39,746 nucleotides of DNA from Salinivenus sp. (GTDB lineage: Bacteria > Bacteroidota > Rhodothermia > Rhodothermales > Salinibacteraceae), in assembly GCA_018609755.1 (NCBI GenBank), contig JAHENZ010000195.1:1-39746 (forward strand). The letters are read 5' to 3'. Positions 238-8,257 of this stretch are shown here, in pieces (the first letter of the stretch is position 1; the number at the start of each line of letters is the position of its first letter). Position numbers and translations under genes: made by a program. The notes beneath the pieces were generated by a model. It made no database searches, was not told where the DNA came from, and was given only the letters and a program-made list of their open reading frames with translations.

Positions 238-888
238 TCAGGCCGCAGGTTCGGTAATCTCGTACGAGCAGGAGGAATTCCCCTCTGGAATGTGAGCGAC
301 TCGTTCGAGCTTCCCCCCGAAGATCTCCTTGTAAAACTCTTCCTCCAGCCGACACGGGATGCGGGTCTCTTTCACCGACTCGGGAAAAGGGCAGTTGCAC
401 TCCCGAATCGTCACCTCACCTTCCTCGCGGGAAATGTGGGGCATAAAGCCTTCCTCCTCCAGAATTTGCCGGAGGGTTTCCACCTTTTCGTCGATGTCGC
501 CGGACGCGACCTCTTCCAGTTTTTGCTTGACTGCTTCGGTCCGGTCGTTCCAGTACGACTCAAAAAACGTCTGTACCAAATCCTCCGCCCCCTGCTCCTT
601 CAAGAAGTGGACGAGTCGGCCCATAAGCTCTCCGTCCCGCGACGGAAAGAGTACCTTGGCTCGCCGGGTCATCTCGTATCGATGGCTCGGGCGCCCTCGT
701 CCCTTCCGCTCCACGGTCCGATCAAGGAGGCCCTTTTCCTTGAGCTGCAAAAGGTGCTCTCGCACGGTCGTACGGGCCATGCCGAGGGCGTCCATCGCCT
801 CGTCGACGGAAAGACTTCCCCGTCGCTTGATAATCTGTAGCAGCTCGCGTCGTGTGTCGGACGAAACGAGATCGAGGGCGGAAGACAT
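238..888 (-). CDS. SufR-like ArsR/HTH transcriptional regulator with C-terminal cysteines
   Basis: This 216-aa protein has an N-terminal winged helix (about residues 5-75) with a recognition helix around MARTTVREHLLQLKEKG and a basic wing KGRGRPSHRY. A helical middle section follows, and then a Cys cluster: C164, C166, C179 and C207. The spacing C166-x12-C179-x27-C207 resembles SufR-type regulators, which bind a [4Fe-4S] cluster and control Fe-S assembly genes. No suf genes are present; the neighbours are NO reductase, RIC and DUF2249 genes. Fe-S regulators react readily with NO, so a role as NO or redox sensor for this island is plausible inference. The ATG at 888 is the only good start, and a strong terminator follows the stop. 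It could instead regulate genes elsewhere. Confidence 0.8.
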   Translation of the reverse strand: MSSALDLVSSDTRRELLQIIKRRGSLSVDEAMDALGMARTTVREHLLQLKEKGLLDRTVERKGRGRPSHRYEMTRRAKVLFPSRDGELMGRLVHFLKEQGAEDLVQTFFESYWNDRTEAVKQKLEEVASGDIDEKVETLRQILEEEGFMPHISREEGEVTIRECNCPFPESVKETRIPCRLEEEFYKEIFGGKLERVAHIPEGNSSCSYEITEPAA

Positions 889-1140: not shown

Positions 1141-1383
1141 CTACTCTTCCACCTTCGAAATCTTCACGCGCCACTCCTTCGGTCCCTGTTCCAGGTACTC
1201 CCACTCCATCTGTCCGGGACGCTCGGCCTGGAACTGGTGGTAGAGCGGCTTTGGATCGTGGTCATTCAGGAGCACAAAGTGGTCGCCCGTCTCCAGATCG
1301 TCGAACGTCTGAAAGATGGTCGGATGCTTTTCGCGCGGGGGGATCGGGCGTACGTCGAGGGTCTTTTCTTCGGCGGTTGTCAT
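1141..1383 (-). CDS. DUF2249 domain protein
   Basis: This is an 80-aa protein starting at the ATG at 1383; a GTG four codons upstream is possible but less likely. The body shows the DUF2249 pattern: LDVRPIPPREKHPTIF near the start, then LETGDHFVLLNDHDPKPLYHQF, and a C-terminal strand EWRVKISKVEE. DUF2249 is a small TusA/SirA-like alpha-beta fold of unknown biochemistry. It is often encoded beside hemerythrin-like and denitrification genes, which fits this location. It is divergent from the NO reductase operon across a 340-base region holding two AT-rich motifs. A 252-base stretch without a recognisable gene separates its stop from the downstream regulator. Confidence 0.85.
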   Translation of the reverse strand: MTTAEEKTLDVRPIPPREKHPTIFQTFDDLETGDHFVLLNDHDPKPLYHQFQAERPGQMEWEYLEQGPKEWRVKISKVEE

Positions 1384-1513
1384 AATGCTTAGCACTATTG
1401 GTTTTCAGTAGACGCTGCAATCCCAAATCAACCGATGTCCGCCTGTCACGGACAGGGCACGATGAGTTGGGAATCTCAGGGTAAACGATCCTCCCCCTAT
1501 TCACAAGTTAAAG

Positions 1514-1895: not shown

Positions 1896-2435
1896 ATGAG
1901 CTCTCCCCTCAAACCGCAAACCGACAACTGGTGGGACGTGCCGGTCCACTGGGACGAAAAGGTCTGGATCGGCATCAGCGTTTTCTGGGCACTGGTCCTG
2001 TTCGGTTGGATGACTGCCTGGGGCTCGATCGGCAATCAAACGCAGGAAGGCCCCACCTATCAGGTGAGTCCGAATGCCTTCCAGACGAAGATTGACAGTT
2101 TCAAGGCCCGGGCAGAAGAAACCGATCGCGGCTTTCGGCCCGCCGGTAGCGACGTCTACATCGCTGGCATGCGATACGGCTTCGACGGTCTCCCCGTCGT
2201 GCTGAAAGCCGGAAAGGAGTATGATTTCCATCTAAGCAGCTACGACGTACAGCACGGGTTCGGAGTCCGCCCGAACGACGCGCTCAGCAAACAGATGACC
2301 CTTCAGCTCCTCCCCGGGTACGAGTGGGTCCTGCCAATGACCTTCGATGAGCCCGGGACCTATCACGTGGTCTGCAACGAGTTCTGCGGCGTGGGCCACC
2401 GCACCATGCACGCCAAATTTATCGTCGAGAAATAG
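1896..2435 (+). CDS. CuA-containing subunit II of a heme-copper NO reductase/oxidase
   Basis: This 179-aa subunit II has a single N-terminal transmembrane helix (about residues 23-44) followed by a periplasmic cupredoxin domain. The CuA ligands are all visible: H120 in DVQHGF, then C160, E162, C164, H168 and M171 in CNEFCGVGHRTM. The binuclear copper centre is therefore predicted intact and would take electrons from a soluble or lipid-anchored donor and pass them to subunit I. One helix instead of two is typical of the B-family/ba3 group, with subunit IIa supplying the second. A CuA site distinguishes this enzyme from classical cNOR and qNOR, which lack CuA. The subunit I start follows 10 bases after the stop. 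Confidence 0.93.
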   Translation: MSSPLKPQTDNWWDVPVHWDEKVWIGISVFWALVLFGWMTAWGSIGNQTQEGPTYQVSPNAFQTKIDSFKARAEETDRGFRPAGSDVYIAGMRYGFDGLPVVLKAGKEYDFHLSSYDVQHGFGVRPNDALSKQMTLQLLPGYEWVLPMTFDEPGTYHVVCNEFCGVGHRTMHAKFIVEK

Positions 2436-2445
2436 TGCCGACGCC

Positions 2446-4182
2446 ATGGACCCCTCTACTACTGCTCCCCGCTCCGGCCTCCTCGGCCTCTTCGACAATC
2501 CGTACGACGAGGAGGGCTTCCGTACGTGCTCGGTGACGGGGCTCAACATTCACCGTTCCGTCGAGAACTACGTCAAGCTCTTCGGCCTCACAGCGGTCGT
2601 GGCTCTGCTCGTGGGCGGCATTGCAGCCATCTTCGTGGCCATGACGCGCTGGGAACTGGTGAGCCTTACCTCCGCCCCGGACTTCTACAACTGGCTCAGC
2701 GTCCACGCCTGGAATCTGCTGATCTTCTGGATGGTGTTTATGGAGATCGGCATCCTTTACGTGGGCGGGCCGATGGTGCTGGGCCGAAAGTTGCCCACCC
2801 CCAGCCTGGCCAAAACCGGCTGGATCGTCATGCTCGGATCGGCGGTGTGGATTAACGTTGAGCTCTTTACCACGAGCGCCCCTGACAGCGCCCCCCTCCT
2901 CACTTCCTACGCCCCTCTCCCGTCGTCGGCCGGGTTCTACCTCGGCACCATCGTCTTTATCCTCGGCACCATCATCGCGGCGCTCCCGTTCCTGATTTCC
3001 ATCTGGCAGGAAAAGACGGAGCACCCCAACCGGAGCCTTCCGCTGGTGTCCTTCGGGGCATTCATCACGGCCATCGTGGCCCTCGAAGCCCTCATTGGCG
3101 GCCTCATCACGTACGTCCCCACGTACCTGTGGCGCATCGGGATCGTCGAGCACATCGATGCGGCGTGGTACCGGCAGATGTACTGGATCATCGGTCACGG
3201 AAGCCAGCAGATTAACCTGCTGGCGATGATCACGGTCTGGTACTTCCTGACCCACGTCGTGGGCGGGGCGGAGGTCGTCAGTGAAAAGGTGTCGCGCACG
3301 GCCTTTATCCTGTACCTCTTCTTCATCAACATGGGGGCGGCACACCATCTCATGGCCGATCCCGCCCTGGCCACCGTCTGGAAGGAGTGGAATACCTCCT
3401 ACGCCGTCTACGGGGCCGTCATTGCGAGCATGATCCACGCCTTCGCCATTCCCGCCGGCCTCGAAGCCGGACGCCGGAAGCGCGGGCAGGGCAAAGGCCT
3501 CTTCAGCTGGTTGATGTCCGCTCCGTGGAAGGATCCCGTCTTCTCGTCGGTCATCTTCGGCATCATTCTGTTCGGCTTCCTGGGCGGCATCACAGGGGTC
3601 ATCATGGGCCAGATGCAGCTGAACCTGACGTGGCATAATACCTTCGCCACCGTCGGCCACTTTCACGCGACGGTGGTCCTGGGGACCACAATCACCTTCA
3701 TGGGACTCGTCTACTTCGTCATCCGCCTGCTCTTTCGGCGGAAGCTCTTCCTCAAGCCTCTGGCGCAGCTGCAACCGTACTTCTACGCCGGGACGATGAG
3801 CCTCACGACCCTCATGATGCTGTATCTCGGCATCCTGTACGGCATCCCGCGGCGCCATCCGTCGGTGACCGACATTCCGGGAACAGAATTTGACTTCGCC
3901 GCCGCCGAGCCACTGTTCTGGGTCTTCGGCGTGGCCGCTATCCTCGCAATCACCGGTGGAGCCCTCTTCATCCTGGTCGCCGTGGGGTCCCTCCTCTTCG
4001 GTGAGCCCACCGATCCGTCGAGTCTCGTGCCGGCGGTCGAACCGGTGGAAGACGACGACACGTCCCTCCACGCCCAATCGGTGCGGGGAACCTTCACGCT
4101 GACGCTCGTCTTCCTGGCCGTCTTTGTGGTCACGTACGTGCTCAACTGGTATCTGCTCTCCCGGCTCTGGCACATCGGATAG
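2446..4182 (+). CDS. Heme-copper oxidoreductase subunit I, probable nitric oxide reductase (eNOR-like)
   Basis: This 578-aa catalytic subunit starts at the ATG at 2446. The frame is open further upstream, but that part overlaps the CuA gene and is not protein-like. Metal ligands are visible: H87 (SVHAWN, low-spin heme), H251 (GHGSQQ) and H300-H301 (AAHHL) for the active-site metal, and H405 and H407 (VGHFHA) for the high-spin and low-spin hemes. In oxygen reductases H251 begins HPEVY or HPVVY, and the Tyr four residues on is cross-linked and needed for O2 cleavage. Here that position is Gln255. The missing Tyr, the CuA subunit II, and the RIC, DUF2249 and cupredoxin neighbours point to NO reduction. 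The best-known match for this combination is the eNOR group described from Rhodothermus marinus. Annotation pipelines will probably label it cbb3/ba3 oxidase. Confidence 0.85.
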   Translation: MDPSTTAPRSGLLGLFDNPYDEEGFRTCSVTGLNIHRSVENYVKLFGLTAVVALLVGGIAAIFVAMTRWELVSLTSAPDFYNWLSVHAWNLLIFWMVFMEIGILYVGGPMVLGRKLPTPSLAKTGWIVMLGSAVWINVELFTTSAPDSAPLLTSYAPLPSSAGFYLGTIVFILGTIIAALPFLISIWQEKTEHPNRSLPLVSFGAFITAIVALEALIGGLITYVPTYLWRIGIVEHIDAAWYRQMYWIIGHGSQQINLLAMITVWYFLTHVVGGAEVVSEKVSRTAFILYLFFINMGAAHHLMADPALATVWKEWNTSYAVYGAVIASMIHAFAIPAGLEAGRRKRGQGKGLFSWLMSAPWKDPVFSSVIFGIILFGFLGGITGVIMGQMQLNLTWHNTFATVGHFHATVVLGTTITFMGLVYFVIRLLFRRKLFLKPLAQLQPYFYAGTMSLTTLMMLYLGILYGIPRRHPSVTDIPGTEFDFAAAEPLFWVFGVAAILAITGGALFILVAVGSLLFGEPTDPSSLVPAVEPVEDDDTSLHAQSVRGTFTLTLVFLAVFVVTYVLNWYLLSRLWHIG

Positions 4183-4218: not shown

Positions 4219-5073
4219 ATGGATTCGTCTCCCCCAACGACAAGTGTCATCTCTGACTCGCACGACTCGAAGACCGGGTCCGCAGAGCGGAAGAACGGCG
4301 CTCAGAACGCAACGCTGCCCCCCGGATACGAATCCTCGTCGAGCCAATCGAACGGACGCACGCCCTCGGCCCAAAACGAGTCCGCATCCACACGAACGCA
4401 CTCACTGCTGACGCGCCTCTGGCGCACCATTAAGAGCATTTACTACGCCAGCAGTCCGGCCTGGCAGTTTTTGAAGAGCGGCGCCTTGTTTTTCTTCGGC
4501 CTGTTCTGCTGGTCGGCCGCGAACCTGTTGCTCTCCTACGAGCCAAGTTGGCACTGGACCTACTTTCTCATGGCGTACGGCTTCCTCCTGACGCCGTACG
4601 GCCCGTTCACGCACCTCGTGCTCGTTCCCTACGTCATTCCGTGGCTCCGGCGGCGCAAGCGAGACCATTGGCTGCACGTCCTCGGCCGGCACCTCACCCT
4701 GACGAGCCTCACGCTCTTCTTCGGCGCGGTGTTGTGGTTGGGTCTGTCCTCTCCTTCGTTCATGCAAATGGACTTCCGAGCGACGAGCAGCGCCGAAGCG
4801 GTCGATGTCAATCCGACGCTGGTCTGCTCCGAGCCCGCCGACGACGACGCCCTCATTGCCTGCCATCTCGAACAAACCGCCGGCGTTGGGACCATTACCG
4901 TCGAATCCGGGGGCACGCAACAACTGCAGCGGACGGAGCCGCCCTTCGCGTTTTCTCTCCGCCGCGAGCAGCTTGTCGAGGTGGTGGGCCAGCTCCAATT
5001 TCAGGTCGTCGTACACGACACGGAGGGGGCGTCCGTGCGACGATTCAATCGAACGGTTTCGCGTGTCCGATAG
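4219..5073 (+). CDS. Uncharacterised membrane protein of the NOR operon
   Basis: I do not recognise this 284-aa family. Residues 1-60 are a low-complexity Ser/Thr/Asn/Gln-rich segment. Three hydrophobic spans follow at about 84-106, 113-142 and 157-177, the second containing a TPYGPFTH motif. A polar domain of about 100 residues comes last, with two cysteines (C203, C215) and a predicted beta-rich tail ending VRRFNRTVSRVR. It begins 36 bases after the catalytic subunit on the same strand, so it probably belongs to the NOR operon. It could be an accessory subunit or assembly factor; no cofactor motif is evident. The long unstructured N-terminus is unusual for an integral membrane subunit, and an internal start cannot be excluded. 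Confidence 0.7.
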   Translation: MDSSPPTTSVISDSHDSKTGSAERKNGAQNATLPPGYESSSSQSNGRTPSAQNESASTRTHSLLTRLWRTIKSIYYASSPAWQFLKSGALFFFGLFCWSAANLLLSYEPSWHWTYFLMAYGFLLTPYGPFTHLVLVPYVIPWLRRRKRDHWLHVLGRHLTLTSLTLFFGAVLWLGLSSPSFMQMDFRATSSAEAVDVNPTLVCSEPADDDALIACHLEQTAGVGTITVESGGTQQLQRTEPPFAFSLRREQLVEVVGQLQFQVVVHDTEGASVRRFNRTVSRVR

Positions 5074-5114: not shown

Positions 5115-5522
5115 TTAATGGGACCCTCGCTGTGGAAGTCCCCGCACCCGGGGCCACAGCACCCAGAGCACCAGTAGCCCAGCCCCAAACTCGGCCCCTC
5201 GCCCCGCCACCCAAAGGCCGGGGACGGTCCCCCATTGTGCCCCAACGACCCCCAGAATGCCTCCATTCAACAGGGCCCACGCCGTCCAGAGCCGACGGTC
5301 CGAGGAGACTTGATTGGCAAAGGGCAGGATCCACAGGGCCACCCCGAAGGCCAGCTGGCATACCCATCCCAGCAGCATTCCCTCCACGTGGAGGGGGCGC
5401 AGCGCAAACGGCACGGTCGGCAATGTCCCGCCGGTGGCCGCCAGGCGCCACGCCCCGGCCGAGGCCCCGATCGCAAAGTGCACCAGGGCCGTCCGTACAA
5501 ACCAGATGCTAATCGTAGACAT
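5115..5522 (-). CDS. Four-helix membrane protein with conserved His, paralogue 1
   Basis: This 135-aa integral membrane protein has four predicted helices. It is a paralogue of the next gene upstream: both share an N-terminal W-x5-TAL-x-H pattern (H15 here), a second-helix His followed by a GW motif (LHVEGMLLGW), and a third helix LWTAWALLNGGIL. Paired His in helices I and II would suit heme b binding, and the GW-x3-LxFGVAxWxxP pattern resembles short cbb3/NorB-like or NnrS-like membrane modules. I cannot assign a function. It is the last gene of a minus-strand operon RIC, paralogue 2, paralogue 1, and converges on the NOR operon. The start is the ATG at 5522; longer frames upstream are not protein-like. 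Confidence 0.72.
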   Translation of the reverse strand: MSTISIWFVRTALVHFAIGASAGAWRLAATGGTLPTVPFALRPLHVEGMLLGWVCQLAFGVALWILPFANQVSSDRRLWTAWALLNGGILGVVGAQWGTVPGLWVAGRGAEFGAGLLVLWVLWPRVRGLPQRGSH

Positions 5523-5568: not shown

Positions 5569-5979
5569 CTACTTCGGGCGCACGCGACTCCAGAAATGCA
5601 CCACCAGTAGGAGACTCGCCCCCCACTGCAGAACCGCGGACATAGCAAGGCTCCACGTCTGCACCGATGCGGGGATCAGACCGGGTTCTGCTCCCACTCG
5701 CAGGAGCACACCCGTATTCAGCAGTCCGTAAGCGATCCACATGAGACGGGCCGAGGGCTGCGTGCCGGGAGCGGGACTGGGAAACAGCCAGAAGGCCACT
5801 CCGAAAATCAGCTGTGTGAGCCAGCCGACCGTTAGAAGGTGCAACTGCGGCAACCAGAGCGTGGAGGCTGTCCCCGGCAGGAGCCCGGCCGTCTGTCCGG
5901 CCCGAACGAGCGCGAGCCCGAGGGCGAGGACGAGGTGCAACAGGGCGGTCTTAATGAGCCAGCGGGCGGGTGTAGGCAT
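5569..5979 (-). CDS. Four-helix membrane protein with conserved His, paralogue 2
   Basis: This 136-aa protein has four predicted helices and starts at the ATG at 5979. Matching features to the neighbour at 5115-5522 are H15 in KTALLHL, LHLLTVGWLTQLIFGVAFW in helix II, and MWIAYGLLNTGVL in helix III. The two genes are 46 bases apart and look like a tandem duplication that has diverged. The RIC gene stops 38 bases upstream, so the three are probably one transcript. The helix II segment is the kind seen in membrane proteins annotated as oxidase subunit I-like or NnrS-like in NO-related clusters. A role in heme or NO handling is inference from context. Confidence 0.72.
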   Translation of the reverse strand: MPTPARWLIKTALLHLVLALGLALVRAGQTAGLLPGTASTLWLPQLHLLTVGWLTQLIFGVAFWLFPSPAPGTQPSARLMWIAYGLLNTGVLLRVGAEPGLIPASVQTWSLAMSAVLQWGASLLLVVHFWSRVRPK

Positions 5980-6017: not shown

Positions 6018-6731
6018 CTACACAAGAGCACGGGCCCGCGGGAAGAGAATGCTGTTTTCCTTGTGCACGTGCTGGTGGGTGTCGGTCCCCAGCGCCTCCA
6101 GCCCGTCCATAACGGCCCGAAAGCTGTTGCAGCCCCACTCCGGCACCGTAAAGTCTTGGGAGAGCGTGCGCATTCGCTTCAGCGCTGTTCCCGTCTCGTC
6201 GTGTTCTTCTTCCATGCAAGCAATGGGATCGCCGTCTAGGGCGTCCGGCGCGGGCGTCGTGGCGTCCTCCACGCAGGCCCGAATGAACGGAAACACGATC
6301 TTTTCCTCCTTCTCGATGTGGGCCTCCATGCTGGGCTTCAGTTCTTCGAAGACCTCCCTCACGGAGACAATCCAGGGCGCGTCCGTTCCGTGGACGTGAG
6401 ACACCTTTTCGAGGAGATCGCCCAACCGTGGCAACTCACGTCGGAGGTACGCGTGGTGCGTCTCTTCAATGTGATTGATGAGTTCATCAAGTGGGGCTGC
6501 CGACCAGTTTATGCCCTCTCCCCCGGCCCCGTCGTCCGCATCGAGGTCAACGTCTGATTCGAGCATGCGGATGACCGTATCGGCGTCAAGGCCTTCCATT
6601 GCACAGGCGGTTCGCAGGGAGCGATCGCCCCCACAGCAGTAGTCGACCCCAAGCCGTTCGAAGAGACGAGCGGACGAGGGATGCTCGGCGACAATCTGAC
6701 CGATGGAGGTTTCCGAATTGAAGGTCGTCAT
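6018..6731 (-). CDS. ric: RIC/YtfE/ScdA di-iron Fe-S cluster repair protein
   Basis: This 237-aa protein starts at the ATG at 6731. The N-terminal ScdA_N domain (residues 1-50) contains the signature TSIGQIVAEHP and the vicinal pair C32-C33 in DYCCGG. The remainder is a hemerythrin-like four-helix domain with di-iron ligands in HIEETHHAYL, HIEKEEKIVFPFI, EEEHDET and HQHVHKENSILFP. RIC proteins repair Fe-S clusters damaged by NO or oxidative stress and act in the cytoplasm. Length and motif order are normal for the family. It leads an operon with the two 4-TM genes and is divergent from the cupredoxin gene; the shared upstream region holds two copies of the AT-rich motif. Confidence 0.95.
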   Translation of the reverse strand: MTTFNSETSIGQIVAEHPSSARLFERLGVDYCCGGDRSLRTACAMEGLDADTVIRMLESDVDLDADDGAGGEGINWSAAPLDELINHIEETHHAYLRRELPRLGDLLEKVSHVHGTDAPWIVSVREVFEELKPSMEAHIEKEEKIVFPFIRACVEDATTPAPDALDGDPIACMEEEHDETGTALKRMRTLSQDFTVPEWGCNSFRAVMDGLEALGTDTHQHVHKENSILFPRARALV

Positions 6732-6944: not shown

Positions 6945-7066
6945 TTCAATGCGTTGGACCGTTTGCCCGAGTCATCGCTTCAACGAGACACACAAATGAA
7001 GACCGTCGACTGCTGTCCACAAGCAGACGGCTCCGCAAAACTCTCAAACGATCGCACCCCGACGTG

Positions 7067-7663
7067 ATGGACGAAGAGCAAACCCCAGCGAACCAGCAAA
7101 CCGTTTCCCGCCGCGACTTTCTACAGCGGCTCGGTCTTTTCGGCGCGGTCGGTGTAGGAGCGACGTCGCTCCTCGTCGGATGCGGAGGCGAATCCAGCGA
7201 GAATAGCGGCTCCTCCAATCAGTCCTCCGCCGCATCCGGAAGCAAATCGTCCGGCGGAAGCGGCGACGTGGCCAAAACCGTTACGCTCCACCCGAAGGGC
7301 AACCAGATGAAATTCAAAGAGACGGAGTTCACCGTCCCTGCCGGAGAGAAGGTAGAACTCGTGTTCGAGAACACGGCATCGAGCCCCTCGATGCAGCACA
7401 ACGTGGTGATCGCTGCGTCCGGATCTGACGGGCTTCTCAAGAAGATTGGGCAGGCCGGTACACAGGCTGGATCTACAAATGATTACGTTCCTCAGGAGGG
7501 AGACATCACGGAACAGATCCTCGCCCACACGCCCATTGCAAAGCCGGGCGAAACCGTCTCCATCACCTTCACGACCCCGTCAGAGGCCGGCGAGTATGGC
7601 TACGTGTGCACCTATCCCGGCCACTGGGCCACGATGCAGGGAACGATGATTGTGGAGGGCTAA
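7067..7663 (+). CDS. Tat-exported lipoprotein cupredoxin, azurin/auracyanin-like
   Basis: This 198-aa protein starts at the ATG at 7067; a GTG one codon earlier is possible. The export signal is a twin-arginine motif S14-R15-R16-D-F-L with a hydrophobic stretch, and it ends in a lipobox LVGC with C39. The mature protein should therefore be Tat-exported and lipid-anchored. A Ser/Gly-rich linker (40-66) precedes the blue-copper domain. The type 1 copper ligands are visible: H111 in MQHNVV, then C181, H186 and M190 in CTYPGHWATM. Azurin and auracyanin carry single electrons in the periplasm. Beside a CuA-containing NO reductase, the simplest role is electron donor to CuA, but no experiment or fixed operon link shows this. 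It has its own promoter region. Confidence 0.92.
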   Translation: MDEEQTPANQQTVSRRDFLQRLGLFGAVGVGATSLLVGCGGESSENSGSSNQSSAASGSKSSGGSGDVAKTVTLHPKGNQMKFKETEFTVPAGEKVELVFENTASSPSMQHNVVIAASGSDGLLKKIGQAGTQAGSTNDYVPQEGDITEQILAHTPIAKPGETVSITFTTPSEAGEYGYVCTYPGHWATMQGTMIVEG

Positions 7664-7750: not shown

Positions 7751-8257
7751 ATCCCCGCCTTCCGGCACGTGATTTGTATACCCCGCCCCTTCGATTCCCT
7801 CCGTCTTTCCAATCCGTGAAAGATGGATCCCGTCTACGACTGCGAGCGAAAGGAGGCCTTGGGAATCTATTCACGCAACGGGAAGCCCAGGGGAGTCCCT
7901 GATTTTGACGGGTGTCCTGTCGTTTTTGAGCCCCCTACCCCCTCTCTACTTCCGGAGGTAAGCAGAATTACTTCATTTCTTATACTTCGGTCGGGATCTG
8001 TTTGAGGAATGTGTGCTGGAGCTTCCGGGCTGCGGAGAAGCTGAGCCCTGTCCCCTGCACGATGATGAGTGGTCCGACGAAAAAGAGCGAGACGCAGGGC
8101 TTGGCTGTCCATGTCGATACGATGAAGCGCAAAACTACTCACGAAAACCGAGCAAGGGCAGGAGTGAGAGAGGTCAGAAGAGGCGTGGGACTGGAACTGC
8201 CGTCGTCTTTAGATGTGCAGGAAGACGTATCAATTCCAGCGACGAAGCCCATGATCC
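7751..8257. other. Intergenic stretch before thiE with no recognised gene
   Basis: Several short frames are open here but none has a recognisable protein or good start. I looked for a TPP riboswitch, which often precedes thi genes, and did not find its conserved CTGAGA and ACCTGAT boxes in the right arrangement. A short hairpin is possible around 8033-8063 (GGGCT and AGCCC arms). Confidence 0.4.

Follow-up and report, generated by a model that had tools for sequence, protein, structure and literature searches.

Enzymes of the eNOR type constitute one of four biochemically characterised families of nitric oxide reductase (NOR) and are related to the B-family oxidases (PMC11388526). They are defined by a Gln in place of the active-site Tyr, carry a cupredoxin subunit gene upstream, and are predicted by modeling to possess one proton channel; Natronomonas is named as a carrier, and the enzymes are frequently misannotated as cytochrome c oxidases (PMC8756737). 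Asn at the diagnostic position marks sNOR/bNOR, and Asp marks gNOR (PMC8756737, table A4). As earlier publications cover the family, the Gln that defines it, and its NO reductase activity, the surprise of a further member is limited.

A heme-copper subunit I gene is located at 2446–4182 of the window, by which we mean the whole 39.7 kb stretch of DNA analyzed here. Judging from its sequence and from the locus overall, the product is very probably (probability of about 0.93) subunit I of an eNOR-type nitric oxide reductase at the cytoplasmic membrane. The genes in and around the operon are as follows.

238..888, − strand: ArsR/SufR-like winged-helix regulator (SufR-like, 62 bits, below the cut-off of 179)
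1141..1395, − strand: DUF2249 protein (PF10006, 1.4e-32)
1896..2435, + strand: predicted eNOR subunit II, with one N-terminal membrane helix and a CuA cupredoxin domain (match to the CuA domain of Thermus ba3 subunit II)
2446..4182, + strand: predicted eNOR subunit I, the heme-copper catalytic subunit, with Gln254-Gln255 replacing Val-Tyr (translation, alignment, tree, and model)
4219..5073, + strand: third conserved gene of the eNOR operon, with three predicted membrane helices and an extracytoplasmic Ig/FN3-like β-sandwich
5115..5522, − strand: mini-HCO 1, a small membrane protein similar only to the opening helices of a heme-copper subunit I (PF00115, 6e-4, below cut-off)
5569..5979, − strand: mini-HCO 2, a further membrane protein of this small type (alignable with mini-HCO 1 and its relatives)
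6018..6731, − strand: RIC/YtfE-type di-iron iron-sulfur cluster repair protein, related to nitrosative stress (TIGR03652, 240 bits, cut-off 205)
7064..7663, + strand: azurin-like cupredoxin with a Tat/lipoprotein-like N-terminus (PF00127, 6e-17)

The translated product of 2446–4182 consists of 578 aa. Called mechanically, the longest ORF would begin at 2347 and overlap subunit II, which ends at 2435; the ATG at 2446 is therefore the sensible start. The product matched Pfam COX1 (PF00115) with 1.9e-52, and its score against NCBIfam CtaD was 52 bits, far under the cut-off of 671. The ligand histidines (H87, H251, H300, H301, H405, and H407) are all present. In a residue alignment of 62 rows, comprising oxidases and NORs from the source genome and other genomes, these six columns are His in all correctly framed heme-copper sequences. 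The motif around the CuB ligand is W-I-I-G-H251-G-S-Q254-Q255, placing Gln255 four residues after H251. Column 255 is Gln in 25 of 25 eNOR-type rows (the window's own among them), Tyr in all 18 A and B oxidases, Ala or Gly in the C-family rows, Glu in the cNOR/qNOR rows (10/10), and Asn in the single sNOR/bNOR-like row (L161); the window protein has Gln where these NORs have Glu or Asn, and also where a gNOR would have Asp. The first-pass annotation had described the six conserved histidines and a Gln that is neither the oxidase Tyr nor the Glu of NorB, and both descriptions hold in the translation and in the alignment. It had also raised the possibility of a Tyr supplied by another helix. In C-family (cbb3) oxidases, helix VII carries the Tyr, six positions ahead of the His pair, and all C rows (7/7) have it; the corresponding residue of the window protein is Ile294. 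With Gln255 and Ile294 standing there, Tyr is missing at both known positions. Y290, which is invariant in eNORs, lies one helical turn away from the cbb3 Tyr position, and we regard a catalytic role for this residue as unlikely.

Across 29 eNOR-type sequences, drawn from Rhodothermota, haloarchaea, Proteobacteria, Rokubacteria, and Leptospiraceae, Q254 and Q255 never vary, and on this comparison, the Tyr-to-Gln change is judged to be more than chance. In total, 31 positions hold a residue that is constant in eNOR and all but absent outside it, including E100, N316, Y319, Y322, and H331. The position of His331 is occupied by Lys in the A family and Thr in the B family. Y266 and S328 are retained as in the B family, and the position of ba3 Tyr244 is Ile (Ile262). 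The AlphaFold2 model of subunit I (pLDDT 83, pTM 0.87) resembles A-type oxidases (17–19% identity) and ba3 oxidases (25% identity) equally, with a Z score of about 34 over 460–490 residues. In the comparison with Thermus ba3 (Protein Data Bank IDs: 1EHK and 1XME; 25% identity over 471–487 residues), the metal ligands and the CuA subunit II are shared, whereas the cross-linked Tyr of Thermus ba3 is lacking in the window protein, which has Gln255, Ile262, and His331 at the aligned positions. We take their ba3 counterparts to be Tyr237 (cross-linked), Tyr244, and Thr312, respectively.

A tree of 61 rows was constructed with IQ-TREE (LG+C20+F+G4 by PMSF), excluding row L160, which was in the wrong reading frame. 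The tree contains one sNOR/bNOR-like sequence (L161) and zero gNOR sequences. Rows L153, L154, L161, and L162 are long branches, and the placement of L161 (Asn-type) is unsure and was not used as an argument. The window protein is placed inside a clade of Gln-bearing sequences (100/100) with those of Rhodothermus and haloarchaea, including Natronomonas. This clade is sister to the B-family (ba3) oxygen reductases, which form a clade of their own (100/99) without the window protein, and it stands apart from the A, C, cNOR, and qNOR branches. Placement among the oxygen reductases, which had been named beforehand as a check, was thus not obtained.

The closest relatives of subunit I are found in a genome of the same order (75% identity), followed by Rhodothermus (73%) and haloarchaea (62–69%). 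The Rhodothermus loci (L028 and L029, Rhodothermus sp.) resemble the window in the order of subunit II, subunit I, and third gene and in the Gln-Gln pair, whereas 27% of the subunit I residues differ, and homologues of RIC, mini-HCO, and azurin were not detected in the adjoining 15–16 kb, unlike in the window. In Murali et al. 2024 (PNAS), the purified eNOR reportedly came from R. marinus. The haloarchaeal eNORs (Natronomonas, Natrinema, Halorubrum, Halobacterium, and others) have the same Gln and mostly the same three genes, but they belong to the other domain of life and form their own clade (98/96) beside the window protein and G085. The eNORs of the proteobacterial, rokubacterial, and Leptospiraceae type share the Gln-Gln pair and a CuA subunit II; they differ in their lower identity (41–44%), in their separate branches of the eNOR clade, and in that the third gene was not detected. 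The cNORs and qNORs share the predicted reaction and the six His residues with the window protein, but they have Glu at the diagnostic position, are without a CuA subunit, and occupy a different main branch of the tree.

Many of the distant-type eNOR loci (L066, L068, L069, L080, L088, L100, L105, and L166–L173) have a second, very divergent HCO-like ORF within 10 kb of eNOR, which is full-length (about 480–580 aa) and matches PF00115 weakly. At L079 (a Nitrospinota MAG), stop codons break the eNOR match region in one frame, apparently because of a frameshift.

In the window, the operon runs from subunit II through subunit I to the third gene. The CuA site of subunit II is complete (H120, C160, C164, H168, and M171), and a subunit II gene lies upstream of subunit I at nearly all eNOR loci for which upstream sequence is available. 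The third gene had no family in Pfam and NCBIfam searches. Rhodothermus, same-order relatives, and haloarchaea have homologues with 33–46% identity 3′ of subunit I, and the gene is present at nearly all such loci with available downstream sequence; it was not detected at the proteobacterial-type loci, nor at the eNOR locus of a second genus member (G322). Its product is modeled (pLDDT 80) with three membrane helices, which contain the motifs W..KS..L..G and YG..GP..H, followed at the C-terminus by an Ig/FN3-like domain in which two Cys residues are conserved. The fold search with the β domain gave weak and generic Ig/FN3-like matches (Z score < 9), which do not imply a function. The product is a possible third subunit or assembly factor. 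We tentatively consider, at somewhat less than even odds, that it is an undescribed subunit or dedicated assembly factor that would make the Rhodothermota/haloarchaeal eNOR a three-component enzyme, unlike the two-subunit proteobacterial eNORs, and would possibly dock the blue-copper donor via its Ig/FN3-like domain.

Downstream of the operon, the two mini-HCO proteins (~135 residues each) had no family above cut-off in Pfam and NCBIfam. Homologues of mini-HCO 1 are found close to eNOR or RIC in other genomes, and a gene 40% identical to mini-HCO 2 lies upstream of eNOR at locus L027; relatives of the pair occur by RIC or eNOR at L027, L066, L176, and L177. They are possibly heme-binding NO-response proteins. 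The cupredoxin encoded at 7064–7663 is, from its sequence, a candidate electron donor to CuA. Elsewhere in the genome, cupredoxins 55–61% identical to it lie next to each of the two nirK genes, and two adjoin nosZ. Likewise, relatives of the DUF2249 protein lie close to nosZ and one nirK in the same genome, and a regulator 45% identical to the 238–888 product is located near the distant-type eNOR at L173. At 7989–8090 (+ strand), a remnant of 34 residues shares 76% identity with the cluster-binding part of an Rrf2/NsrR-like regulator (L206) that follows eNOR in G322; nothing else of the gene is left, which gives it the appearance of a decayed regulator. No FNR/NnrR-like palindromes (≤2 mismatches) were found upstream of the eNOR operon, the azurin gene, or either nirK, so that a shared regulon is not demonstrable; two weak ones lie upstream of nosZ.

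The source assembly (G000) is a draft of 328 contigs with a completeness of 96% and a contamination of 4.96%. It contains two nirK genes above the family cut-off, one of which adjoins an Rrf2 regulator, and one nosZ above the cut-off, adjoined by NosD, ABC, and CRP-type genes. The COX1-family genes are three: A-type, B-type, and eNOR. The two oxidases keep the Tyr (HPAVY in L001 and HAVVY in L002). A COX1-family search of this 96%-complete draft found no cNOR or qNOR. The same search detected cNOR/qNOR in other genomes, which makes the absence meaningful within the limits of the draft, in which a missing gene could be an assembly gap. Since two of the three COX1-family genes are oxidases, the eNOR is, on gene content, the only heme-copper NO reductase candidate between NirK and NosZ. 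The first-pass annotation had pointed to a CuA subunit II, NO-stress neighbors, and an alternative NOR, with eNOR as its guess. The full CuA ligand set at 1896–2435, the above-cut-off RIC/YtfE together with an azurin-like cupredoxin that is also NO-related, and the eNOR clade combined with nirK and nosZ without cNOR/qNOR bear out each of these points, in agreement with the literature (PMC8756737 and PMC11388526). In line with its warning that automatic annotation would likely mislead, profiles give the subunit I gene the COX1 label only, and eNORs are often called cytochrome c oxidases (PMC8756737).

Within the genus, eNOR is present in 2 of 13 genomes (G000 and G322), and nirK occurs in exactly those two (Fisher p = 0.013). 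In the phylum sample, nirK is found in 6/6 genomes with the Rhodothermota/haloarchaeal eNOR subtype versus 43/290 others (p = 1.6e-5), and the association is weaker when all eNORs are counted by genus (p = 0.04); as the compared genomes are not independent, these p-values are indicative only. One genome (G003), which belongs to the genus of the Rhodothermus-like set (cf. G008), has nirK and no eNOR at the threshold used. The eNORs of G000 and G322 are just 65% identical, occupy distinct loci, and fail to group in the tree, which suggests that they were acquired separately within the genus. An Rrf2/NsrR-like regulator and RIC come after eNOR in G322, where nirK is about 15 kb off; RIC adjoins eNOR in both eNOR-bearing members.

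Here, we propose a scheme in which the activity, electron donor, proton channel, and energy coupling are predicted from the observed sequence, ligand set, clade, operon, and gene content; ba3 and aa3 structures served as the guide for assigning the heme and CuB ligands. A blue-copper protein, probably the 7064–7663 product or a paralogue, would deliver electrons singly to CuA of subunit II. They would pass first to the low-spin heme (H87/H407), and from there to the site formed by the high-spin heme (H405) and CuB (H251, H300, and H301), where two NO, two electrons, and two protons would be converted to N2O and H2O. Gln255 would take the place of the Tyr by which O2 reductases split O2. The protons probably come from the cytoplasm via a modified K-type channel including Y266, S328, and His331. 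Together with NirK (nitrite to NO) and NosZ (N2O to N2), the enzyme would enable the cell to denitrify nitrite to N2.

The enzyme may instead serve mainly in detoxification, or in micro-oxic NO reduction, and not in denitrification-linked energy conservation. This alternative concerns the role and not the identity of the enzyme, and the two roles may be compatible. The repair and stress neighbors (RIC and DUF2249) fit it, and nir and nos genes were not found in the scanned parts of the window. Against it stand nirK and nosZ, which the genome carries along with shared azurin partners, and the coupling of nirK with eNOR in the genus, and we regard a mainly detoxifying role as rather unlikely, though a serious contender.

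That the protein could be a ba3-like oxygen reductase of the B family, with its active-site Tyr lost or relocated but still reducing O2, is very improbable. The B family is the sister group and provides the best sequence match among solved structures, and the CuA subunit II is ba3-like. The window protein, however, is outside the B clade (100/99), has Ile at the cbb3 Tyr position, and bears Q254/Q255, N316, H331, E100, and 26 more positions that are fixed in eNOR only. Moreover, eNOR is linked to nirK in the genus and the phylum, and the genome already has Tyr-bearing A- and B-type oxidases, the presence of which does not show that the eNOR cannot also reduce O2.

Least probable of all, contamination of the bin by a contig carrying a foreign eNOR would agree with the contamination value of 4.96%, the 328 contigs, and the absence of eNOR from most genus members, but it is largely refuted by gyrB and hemA, whose best matches are in a same-genus genome (92% and 81% identity, respectively), and by the synteny of thiE-hemD-hemA with several genus members. 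From these matches and this synteny, we judge that the contig is native and belongs to the source organism. The window begins at a contig end, and at the three genus loci compared, none of the genes to the left of thiE, the eNOR cluster among them, was found; the cluster looks like an accessory island.

Less known than the eNOR family itself are the operon's third gene, what look like separate acquisitions in one genus, and an eNOR as the sole heme-copper NO reductase beside NirK and NosZ, here in what is probably a halophilic bacterium. The genus offers a clean natural comparison, with two dissimilar eNORs in precisely the nirK-bearing genomes. For the organism, the correct reading of a gene otherwise labeled COX1 would close the NO step, turning a nitrite reducer with a gap into a possible complete nitrite-to-N2 denitrifier.
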